DNA from: an uncultured bacterium
Lineage (GTDB): Bacteria; Desulfobacterota; Binatia; HRBIN30; CADEER01
Length of the DNA: 36,502 nt
Direction: 5' to 3'
Assembly (NCBI GenBank): GCA_902826395.1
Contig: CADEER010000025.1
Coordinates: forward strand, 8,566-45,067
Shown here: positions 6,592 to 36,502 of the stretch, piece by piece
Position numbering within the stretch: position 1 is the stretch's first letter
Layout of the letters: the number at the start of each line of letters is the position of its first letter
The notes under the pieces: generated by a model
What the model saw: only the letters and a program-made list of their open reading frames with translations
What the model was told of the DNA's origin: nothing
Database searches by the model: none
Translations under genes and position numbers: made by a program

Positions 6592-6720
6592 GAGACGGTC
6601 GTAAAACGAAAGATCAGCGACCGTACACGTACTCGTACACGGAGTTTCCTGCAGAATTCGGGCATTGATCGTGTACGGGTACGCGTACGAGTACGTGTAC
6701 GGGAGAAAATCGACAGTCTC
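6592..6720. mobile_element. Miniature element copy A (129 bp, GTACNC hairpin core)
   Basis: The ends GAGACGGTCG (6592-6601) and CGACAGTCTC (6711-6720) are a 10-bp terminal inverted repeat with one mismatch. The 4-bp CTCA is repeated directly outside both ends (6588-6591 and 6721-6724), as a target-site duplication. Inside, arms of tandem GTACNC hexamers (3 units at 6621-6642, 5 units at 6670-6703) face each other around a spacer with CTGCAGAATTC. It lies between the convergent oxygenase and Ogt-AlkA genes. No coding capacity, so any movement would need a transposase in trans. It is the inverted counterpart of copy B, differing mainly by two hexamers. Confidence 0.85.
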
Positions 6721-7946: not shown

Positions 7947-8046
7947 CGATGAGACATCAGTCGAACGGCTCCTACAGCGCAAGTCACGGATAGGTGAACC
8001 GTGAACAGGGTCGCCTTCCATTCGCTTCGGCGTCGGTATCGCTATT

Positions 8047-8091
8047 GGTATCGGTATCGAGAGGGTCGATTCCGACTCCGATACCGATACC
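8047..8091. repeat. GGTATC-type hairpin
   Basis: GGTATCGGTATCG (8047-8059) is perfectly complementary to CGATACCGATACC (8079-8091), a 13-bp stem. The 19-nt spacer is itself nearly self-complementary (GAGGGTCG against CCGACTC). A further GGTATCG at 8036-8042 and GAACGCGATTCC after the right arm extend the pattern. The arm is a tandem hexamer, as in the GTACNC hairpins, but with a different unit. It lies 100 bp upstream of the Ogt-AlkA start, in its presumed leader or promoter region. Confidence 0.75.
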
Positions 8092-8130: not shown

Positions 8131-8298
8131 GACCCCCTCCTTGGCAAGGGACTGTCGATTTTCTCCCGTACTCGTACTCGTACGCGTACCCGTACACGAT
8201 CCATGCCCGAATTCTGCAGGAAACTCCGTGTACGAGTACGGGTACGAGTACGTGTACGGTCACGAATCTTCGTTTTCCGACAGTCTCGCAAGGAGGGG
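8131..8298. repeat. Older palindrome split by miniature element B
   Basis: When copy B and one GCAA are removed, the flanks rejoin as CCCCTCCTTGGCAAGGAGGGG, a 9-bp perfect stem with a GGC loop. Left half 8134-8147, right half from 8288. The element therefore entered at the apex of a pre-existing palindrome. The right half also runs into the TetR coding sequence. Confidence 0.7.
8148..8287. mobile_element. Miniature element copy B (140 bp, GTACNC hairpin core)
   Basis: Terminal inverted repeats GGGACTGTCG (8148-8157) and CGACAGTCTC (8278-8287) are flanked by a perfect GCAA duplication (8144-8147, 8288-8291). The arms are five GTACNC hexamers each (8166-8198 and 8227-8259). Reverse-complementing arm two and comparing, all three mismatches fall in the fifth base of the hexamer. 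The spacer contains GAATTCTGCAG. Its right end overlaps the 3' end of the TetR gene and supplies its stop codon. The 19 bases from the left terminus (through ATTTTCTCC) are the same in copy C apart from no visible change. Confidence 0.88.
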
Positions 8299-14800: not shown

Positions 14801-14976
14801 CAGGGTTCAGGGGCCAGGGGCCGGGGGTCAGGGAAGGTAGAGGCTTCGCCTCTCATCAATACAGCGGATCTTCGCATAGCGAAGATCCAACCTCCCCTGG
14901 CCCCTGATCCCTGGCCCCCGGCTCCTGGTCAAGATCCTACCACCCCTGACCCCTGGCCCCCGAACCCCGACCCCTG
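14799..14976. repeat. CCCCTGGCCC-type inverted repeat cluster
   Basis: Near-repeats of a 12-13-nt GGGGCCAGG/GGGGTCAGGG unit on the left (14799-14832) face two runs of the complementary CCCCTGGCCCCTGA unit on the right (14892-14928 and 14939-14976). Two small perfect hairpins sit between them: GAGGC-TTC-GCCTC (14839-14852) and GGATCTTCG-5 nt-CGAAGATCC (14866-14888). The cluster fills the gap between ettA and rnr and would be in the rnr leader if transcription starts upstream. Confidence 0.75.
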
Positions 14977-15004
14977 GGGCGCTGACGAGGTGACGGCGAA
15001 GCCG

Positions 15005-33754: not shown

Positions 33755-34063
33755 GTCACCCCGGCGAAAGGGACTGTCGATTTTCTCCAAATGACGGGCG
33801 AAGCCCGCACAAAACACCTCTCCCGCATGACTCGCGGGAGAGGATTAAAGGAGAGGGTTCGTCGTCGTAGAGTCCGCGAAAGCCTTGTGGCACATGCGCT
33901 AACGCACACGAAACATCTGATTGCCCTCTCCCTAACCCTCTCCCGGAGGGAGAGGGGATCTTTGCGGTTCGGGCTCGAGAAACTGTTCGCATCTGCTTTT
34001 ACGACAGTCTCGAAAGCCGGGTCTAGCTTGTGACCCGCTGGATCCCGGCTTTCGCCGGGATGA
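33755..34063. repeat. Paired REP-like CCCGGC-GAAA-GCCGGG repeats, one interrupted
   Basis: Removing copy C and one GAAA restores GTCACCCCGGCGAAAGCCGGGT across 33756-34021. A second, intact copy is at 34044-34063 in inverse orientation: ATCCCGGC-TTTC-GCCGGGAT. The mobile element therefore entered exactly at the tetraloop of the first. The intact copy is immediately upstream of the minus-strand haem-oxygenase-like gene's 3' end. Confidence 0.75.
33770..34011. mobile_element. Miniature element copy C (242 bp, different core)
   Basis: Ends GGGACTGTCG (33770-33779) and CGACAGTCTC (34002-34011) are an inverted repeat with one mismatch at an outer base. A perfect GAAA duplication flanks it (33766-33769, 34012-34015). 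The left 19 bases match copies A and B; the right end shares TTTTACGACAGTCTC. The interior is unrelated: hairpin GGGC-GAA-GCCC (33796-33806), CCTCTCCCGC with GCGGGAGAGG (33817-33843), and CCCTCTCCC with GGGAGAGGG (33936-33956), the latter two forming larger opposed arms. Confidence 0.85.
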
Positions 34064-35124: not shown

Positions 35125-36318
35125 ATGAGCGGCTCCAGCGACCTGTACTACGACCCCTACGACGTCGACATCCGCCAGAATCCGTACCCGACCTACCGCC
35201 GCCTGCGCGAGGAGGCGCCGCTCTATTACAACCCCCAGCACGACTTCTTCGCGGTGAGCCGCTTCGACGACGTGGAGCGCGGCCTGGTCGATCGCGAGAC
35301 CTACATCTCCAGCCGCGGCGCCATCCTCGAGCTCATCCGGGCGAACATGGAGATGCCGTCGGGGGTGATCATCTTCGAGGACCCTCCGGTGCACACCATC
35401 CACCGCGGGCTGCTGTCGCGGGTGTTCACGCCGCGCAAGATGAACGCACTGGAGCAGCAGGTGCGCGACTACTGCGCCGCCGCCCTCGATCCGCTCGTCG
35501 GCAAGGGCGGCTTCGACTTCGTCCGCGACCTCGGTGCGCAGATGCCGATGCGGGTGATCGGCATGCTGCTCGGAGTGCCGGAATCCGACCAGGAGTCGGT
35601 TCGCGACACCGCCGACGCGCAACTGCGCACCAAACCCGGTCAACCGATGAAGTTCACCAGCGAGAAGTTCGCGCGCGGCGAACACTTCGGCGAGTACGTC
35701 GATTGGCGTGCCGAGCACCCCTCCGATGACCTGATGACCGAACTACTGCTCGTCGAGTTCACGGACGAGAACGGCAAGGTCCGGCGGCTGACTCGCGAGG
35801 AGGTCCTCACCTACGTCACCGTCGTCGCGGGAGCGGGCAACGAAACGACGACGCGCCTGATCGGCTGGACCGGCAAGCTGCTGTCCGATCACCCCGACCA
35901 ACGACGCGCGCTGGTCGCCGATCCGTCGCTGATTCCGAACGCCATCGAGGAAATCCTCCGCTACGAATCGCCGGCGCCGCACGTCGCGCGCTACGTCTCG
36001 CGCGATGTCGAGCTGTACGACCGCAAGGTGCCGGAGGGCAGCGTGATGATGCTCCTGATGGGCTCCGGCAATCGCGACGACCGGCGCTTCGCGGACGGCG
36101 ACGCGTTCGACATCCACCGCAAGATCGACCACCACCTCGCCTTCGGCTACGGCATCCACTTCTGTCTCGGCGCCGCCCTCGCCCGCCTCGAGGGACGGGT
36201 TGCTCTCGAAGAAGTGCTGAAGCGATTTCCGGACTGGCAGGTGGACGAAGAGCGCGCCGTGATCGCGCCAACATCCACGGTGCGCGGCTTCGAGACCCTG
36301 CCGGTGTTTACGCCGTGA
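35125..36318 (+). CDS. Cytochrome P450
   Basis: A 397-residue soluble bacterial P450. Marks are the I-helix AGAGNETTT (acid-alcohol pair for O2 activation), K-helix EEILRYE (ExxR), and the haem loop FGYGIHFCLG with cysteine ligand C347. Length matches bacterial class I P450s that need ferredoxin and reductase partners, none of which is encoded nearby. The ATG at 35125 has GAGGAAG 6 nt upstream. A G/C-rich inverted repeat (CCGCCCGCCG at 35051-35060 against 35084-35093) lies in its leader. It is followed, after a GTACNC hairpin, by the start of an AMP-ligase-like gene on the same strand. Confidence 0.94.
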   Translation: MSGSSDLYYDPYDVDIRQNPYPTYRRLREEAPLYYNPQHDFFAVSRFDDVERGLVDRETYISSRGAILELIRANMEMPSGVIIFEDPPVHTIHRGLLSRVFTPRKMNALEQQVRDYCAAALDPLVGKGGFDFVRDLGAQMPMRVIGMLLGVPESDQESVRDTADAQLRTKPGQPMKFTSEKFARGEHFGEYVDWRAEHPSDDLMTELLLVEFTDENGKVRRLTREEVLTYVTVVAGAGNETTTRLIGWTGKLLSDHPDQRRALVADPSLIPNAIEEILRYESPAPHVARYVSRDVELYDRKVPEGSVMMLLMGSGNRDDRRFADGDAFDIHRKIDHHLAFGYGIHFCLGAALARLEGRVALEEVLKRFPDWQVDEERAVIAPTSTVRGFETLPVFTP

Positions 36319-36330
36319 TCAAACTATCGA

Positions 36331-36421
36331 CCGTACACGTTCTCGTACACGTACGCGCACACGAGGTCTCAGGCCCGCATCGTCGGGCCGAGTACGGGTA
36401 CGTGTACGTGTACGTGTACGG
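36331..36421. repeat. Free-standing GTACNC hairpin
   Basis: Arms of five hexamers each (36331-36363 and 36390-36421) flank a short GGCCCG-CATCGT-CGGGCC hairpin (36372-36389). Most mismatches again fall in the fifth base of the unit, with two extra deviations (GTTCTC, GCACAC). Terminal repeats GRGACTGTCG and a target duplication are absent, so this is the core alone. It fills most of the 124 bp between the P450 stop and the next start. Confidence 0.8.
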
Positions 36422-36442
36422 AGACACCCCCCCGGAGATCGC

Positions 36443-36502
36443 ATGACGACTGTCGCGGATGTCATCCGCCGCAACGGCACCGACCCCGGCATCGCCCCGC
36501 GA
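36443..36502 (+). CDS. Start of a probable AMP-binding acyl-CoA ligase (truncated by the window)
   Basis: Only 20 codons are present (MTTVADVIRRNGTDPGIAPR), the typical N-terminus of an AMP-dependent acyl-CoA synthetase (TVADVLRRNA...). GGAG lies 6 nt before the ATG. Same strand as the P450, so it may activate the P450 product or substrate as a CoA thioester. The call depends on the start alone. Confidence 0.55.
   Translation, partial: MTTVADVIRRNGTDPGIAPR

Follow-up and report, generated by a model that had tools for sequence, protein, structure and literature searches.

A GTACNC hairpin without terminal inverted repeats at a P450–ligase junction: a candidate orphan of an S23-associated hairpin family

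The S23/IVP proteins form a widespread family whose function is unknown and which is known mainly from fragmented rRNA. According to the portions of the literature drawn on here, a 23S rRNA IVS may carry an S23p ORF, as in Coxiella burnetii, and its stem is a substrate of RNase III (PMC4990558). PF05635 is reported in rRNA inserts, whether these carry an ORF or not, and ORF-less inserts are reported at the same sites in CPR rRNA (PMC11270868, in the part concerning these inserts). In the relevant passages of two further papers, PF05635 is also reported in cas loci (PMC3936711) and is said to resemble Avd of diversity-generating retroelements (PMC10053308). For Correia elements, the sections used of a recent review report RNase III cleavage, and they describe Chunjie as inserted in an operon (PMC10969869). 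Our literature search, whose coverage of subscription journals was limited, retrieved no publication describing dispersed cognate hairpins of S23 genes.

The hairpin studied here occupies positions 36331–36421 (no strand assigned) of the analysed stretch of 36,502 nucleotides, hereafter the window. An inverted-repeat scan delimited a left arm of GTACNC units (36331–36363, +) and a right arm of GNGTAC units (36389–36421, +), each of 33 nt, which are 85% complementary and separated by 25 nt, so that the hairpin measures 91 bases. By fold and loop comparison, its loop contains a small inner hairpin, GGCCCG...CGGGCC (36372–36389, +), unrelated to the MITE loop treated below. The fold of 36320–36435 reached −54.4 kcal/mol (z −3.7), none of 200 shuffles being equally stable, and the hairpin is predicted to fold as its own domain. 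With one mismatch permitted, GTACACGTACAC had 11 matches in the window against 0.06 expected. The arm motif AGCGMAGCG, present in three other hairpins of the source genome, is absent from this one, and no Rfam family matched it at the gathering threshold. Upstream lies a cytochrome P450 gene (35125–36318, +; PF00067 by Pfam, with the start codon chosen by us), which stops at 36316–36318. The next ATG, at 36443, follows this stop after a gap of 124 nt and the hairpin after 21 nt, which confirms the position, after a P450 stop and before a ligase-like start, given in a preliminary description of this DNA. This ATG opens the 5′ part of a gene (36443–36502, +; MTTVADVIRRNGTDPGIAPR) that is cut by the contig end at 36502 and has a similar start in the congener G002; we take it to be acyl-CoA-ligase-like from the likeness of its 20 readable N-terminal residues, to which the naming is limited, to FadD-type starts. 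A Shine–Dalgarno-like GGAG (36434–36437, +) precedes the ATG within GGAGATC. As a post hoc observation, GGAGATC stands directly 5′ of the ATG in 3 of 12 co-directional junctions with hairpins of this kind (the present one, C309 and C83), compared with 2 of 407 predicted genes starting with ATG.

The source genome (G000; 6.09 Mb in 423 contigs) was compared with three congeners (G001–G003), a genome of the same family (G004) and one of the same order (G012). The GTACNC/GNGTAC arms of the hairpin are like those bordering S23 genes in relatives. A PF05635 (S23/four-helix-bundle) gene on contig C3 of G004 is bordered on either side by GTACNC hairpins (hairpin at 209733–209880, gene at 210016–210327 and hairpins to 210644), and the sole other GTACNC place listed in that genome, C4:628781–628895, has its loop and flanking sequence in common with the hairpins of the S23 locus. 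Two full S23 genes with GTACNC arms (L309 and L314) were found in G012, together with 28 scored copies with such arms, some cut by contig ends, mostly around a gene cut down to its first codons. A 25-nt motif of these arms, GTACACGTACTCAGCGMAGCGGTAC, searched with up to three mismatches (at most two were seen), occurred 38 times in G012 and three times in G000, and was absent from G001–G004 and from the reversed control; all three G000 copies are hairpins lacking terminal inverted repeats (TIRs). None of the five PF05635 hits checked in G000, out of seven, was an S23 gene with GTACNC arms, the remaining two being weak hits. Since no GTACNC-armed S23 gene was seen among the hits checked in G000, the hairpin at 36331–36421 is probably an orphan. 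We consider it reasonably probable that it belongs, as a non-autonomous member, to an S23-associated family of hairpins, somewhat like REPINs or dispersed rRNA IVS. The GTACNC-S23 units of G012 have in part the appearance of array or cassette DNA, and they may therefore have spread for a different reason. Units at L327 (G012:C33) and L309, some of them in tandem, have GTTCGGC-like borders. Integron attC sites were considered for the G012 units and set aside as a weak lead: a strict GTTRRRY core was present on the left in one of the 28 copies, and scanning one copy for inverted repeats gave no hit.

Other S23 genes of the class carry other arm units (CGTGAAC, GGCGAGG, CGGGGTA and similar). Arms were scored by comparing the 250 nt upstream with the 250 nt downstream of each S23 gene. 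The first set covered 30 loci in seven genomes; 17 of them scored 17 or more, whereas 3000 random placements in G000 gave at most 16. A second set comprised 23 new loci, 21 of them scorable, of which 13 reached this score; its shifted controls (n=451) had a maximum of 17 and a 99th percentile of 15. Inverted arms scoring 17 or more were therefore present at 30 of 51 S23 loci in both sets together, with weak Pfam hits and loci truncated by contig ends among those below 17. No rRNA was detected by Rfam at 11 S23 loci or at the locus of the hairpin (L001), the one match in all being a tRNA. About 1.25 Mb of G000 contained eight dispersed CGTGAAC-unit hairpins and four GGCGAGG-unit hairpins, which match the arms of S23 genes in the same genome. 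We advance only tentatively the wider proposal that S23/four-helix-bundle (Avd-like) proteins outside rRNA may be the hallmark of widespread hairpin mobile elements, in which each S23 gene would have its own inverted arms of tandem 6–7-bp units and dispersed non-autonomous hairpins that enter the junctions of operons, duplicating the target and leaving the stop and start codons of both neighbours intact; the hairpin at 36331–36421 would be such an orphan. At L315 (G000:C36:4236–4532), an S23 gene is followed downstream by a complete GGCGAGG-unit hairpin, and its upstream arm sequence lies around a run of N. In the window, CCCCTGR heptamer arrays in direct orientation (14882–14977) are similar to the units in the arms of an S23 gene at G000 C6:72914.

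GTACNCGTACNC matched G000 1206 times (611+595) against 13 (6+7) in the reversed control, with 24, 15 and 10 matches in the three congeners, 59 in G004 and 215 in G012. Several G000 contigs (C3, C9, C11 and others) start inside GTACNC elements; as these repeats break the assembly, the G000 copy numbers are lower bounds. Most of the examined copies are MITEs with GRGACTGTCG ends, and TIR-less hairpins with unrelated loops are a minority, which forms a separate class in G000. Two related MITEs with GTACNC cores (no strand assigned) lie in the window, at 6592–6720 with GACTGTCG-type ends and at 8148–8287 with GRGACTGTCG ends. In the stretches of G000 that were read, a sample enriched for TIR-less copies (20 regions plus several loci picked by a pattern avoiding MITE arms), 53 clusters had five or more units: GACTGTCG-type ends were present on both sides in 29, on one side in 13 and on neither in 11, the last two groups containing some clusters that are coding sequence or contig ends. 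Complementarity at the N positions was found in 70 of 130 cases in MITEs (0/1000 shuffles as good); in TIR-less hairpins it was found in 13 of 28 (311/1000 shuffles as good; nine hairpins entered, one of which gave no units), giving no covariation support. Another element of the window, at 33770–34011, has the ends GGGACTGTCG...CGACAGTCTC in common with the MITEs around a different interior without GTACNC, so that different cores occur within a single set of ends. A TCGGTA hexamer array (8033–8059) lies near a MITE, and hairpins built from TCGGTA or TCGAAA units are scattered through G000.

The preliminary description allowed that the hairpin might be a remnant of a TIR element, that is, a degenerate MITE that was once complete and has lost both ends. 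In favour of this, the arm units are shared, 29 of the 53 clusters have both ends, and among TIR-less hairpins the loop of C134 is clearly MITE-like (0/200 shuffles as good) and that of C25:1586 borderline (1/200). When 14 of the 15 TIR-less hairpins followed were compared with 29 MITE loops, however, the loop at 36331–36421 proved unrelated to the conserved GGAGTTTCCTGCAGAATTCGGGCATTGATC type (57/200 shuffles as good), and for the other 11 hairpins at least 25/200 shuffles were as good. The GTACNC arms, a MITE feature, are present, and the GRGACTGTCG terminal inverted repeats at fixed distance are missing, as the same description had stated. Genuine MITE ends sit at offsets 16–18 and 23–30. 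At these offsets, the best GACTGTCG match to the left of the hairpin has three mismatches; to the right, a one-mismatch match lies at offset 35, within ligase codons. Diverged MITE ends, raised earlier as a possible counter-argument, were searched for around the hairpin and none was found at the right distance in either flank. Because its loop is unlike that of the MITEs, the hairpin is, on sequence comparison, probably not a MITE remnant, and we regard loss of both ends from a full element as unlikely. A related GTACNC core was probably captured by the TIR element.

By gene prediction from codon usage, 12 of the 15 TIR-less junctions are co-directional (three re-assigned by hand after suspected wrong start codons), two are convergent and one is divergent. 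Co-directional neighbours were also found for 17 of 26 classifiable MITEs, with three more at contig edges, and for 95 of 142 baseline pairs, which makes direction on its own a weak argument. TIR-less hairpins sit in narrow gaps, often 10–60 nt per side, and MITE gaps are mostly larger. Alternatively, the hairpin could have evolved separately from simple sequence as a regulatory or mRNA-stabilising stem of the host, fixed in an intercistronic gap and not mobile. The prevalence of co-directional narrow gaps is consistent with this, as is the lack of a flanking duplication at 36331–36421, already remarked on in the preliminary description (direct-repeat score 6, control mean 7.6). Such a stem does not account for the lineage-restricted expansion of the repeat (1206 matches vs 10–24 in congeners), for the insertion of a sibling at C309 or for the absence of the hairpin at the G002 junction, and we judge it improbable.

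The C309 hairpin lies directly before a gene of a Bat operon which, from reading its sequence, is presumably BatA-like. In G001, G002 and G003, this gene overlaps the preceding one at ATGCGGCTGCATGA, and the equivalent region of G004 is likewise without a hairpin. In G000, a 17-nt sequence, CATGCGGCTGCATGATC, stands at either end of an insert of 173 bp, which includes the hairpin and is absent from the four relatives; direct repeats of score 16 or more occurred at 0.15% of 2000 random places. Both neighbouring genes keep their stop and start, which means that an insert can enter a start/stop overlap and leave both genes unbroken. Mobility of the TIR-less family is documented once, at C309. Among 14 TIR-less hairpins tested for direct duplication, only this one was convincing, a 13-nt near-repeat at C10 being at the control's 95% level; in other periodic hairpin families, the single row at or above a score of 12, among 29 non-GTACNC rows, owes its match to a MITE end. 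The earlier suggestion that the core may move separately is therefore supported at the family level, by the distinct TIR-less class and by one insertion with a 17-bp duplication. Comparison with a hairpin-free P450–ligase locus, also proposed earlier, was possible with G002, where a putative orthologous P450 (82% identity) and a similar ligase start downstream are 67 nt apart, with no GTACNC hairpin between them. As the G000 and G002 spacers do not align, we infer rather than observe insertion at this junction and, with it, the mobility of this copy. The unit boundaries differ between the two sites, given an insert of 173 bp at C309 and a gap of 124 nt here. The hairpin could also be what remained, as the core only, from the activity of another transposon or from recombination between GTACNC repeats, which we consider very unlikely: highly repetitive arms could recombine and an unrelated TIR element carries GTACNC cores, but the flank is not common to MITEs and the loop differs from theirs.

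The preliminary description placed the hairpin in the operon mRNA, which is plausible, as the genes are co-directional and the search of 36200–36502, including the part between hairpin and ligase, revealed nothing resembling a promoter or a terminator; no T run of an intrinsic terminator follows the stem. Its suggestion that translation could be altered found no support in folding, since in silico removal of the hairpin left accessibility nearly equal (Shine–Dalgarno from 0.31 to 0.36, ATG from 0.83 to 0.78). An effect on RNA processing is likely, because the long stems of IVS and Correia elements are cut by RNase III, and by analogy the hairpin is probably a double-strand RNA processing site in the operon. 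If it belongs to an S23-associated family, the copy would have inserted as a unit between P450 and ligase, and an S23 protein or a trans-acting partner may once have helped its spread; we know of no catalytic protein for this S23/Avd-like candidate helper. The long stem in the polycistronic mRNA could then serve as an RNase III substrate and separate the P450 and ligase messages, and the ligase would keep its own ribosome-binding site after cleavage of the stem. If true, the link between S23, tandem-unit arms and operon-inserting hairpins would give S23 a testable role, and it would explain a bacterial repeat class without a known transposase.

Cyanobacterial STRR heptamer repeats consist of tandem units of about 7 bp and also occur in hairpins, a unit structure like that of the arms described here. 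Correia/NEMIS and Chunjie are likewise small hairpin elements in or near transcripts; unlike the copy at 36331–36421, which has neither feature, they have TIRs and direct repeats in the description available from the review (PMC10969869). REPIN-RAYT systems resemble the present one, as far as the portion used of the source describes them, in their dispersed extragenic hairpins and in a cognate gene situated near those hairpins (PMC3116915), whereas the helper here would be S23/Avd-like and not an HUH transposase. The rRNA IVS differ in that the 11 S23 loci checked here lie outside rRNA, the hairpin at 36331–36421 is without an ORF, the arms are tandem 6–7-bp units and RNase III cleavage is something we infer; as in the part of the IVS account cited above (PMC4990558), an S23-family ORF lies between inverted arms.
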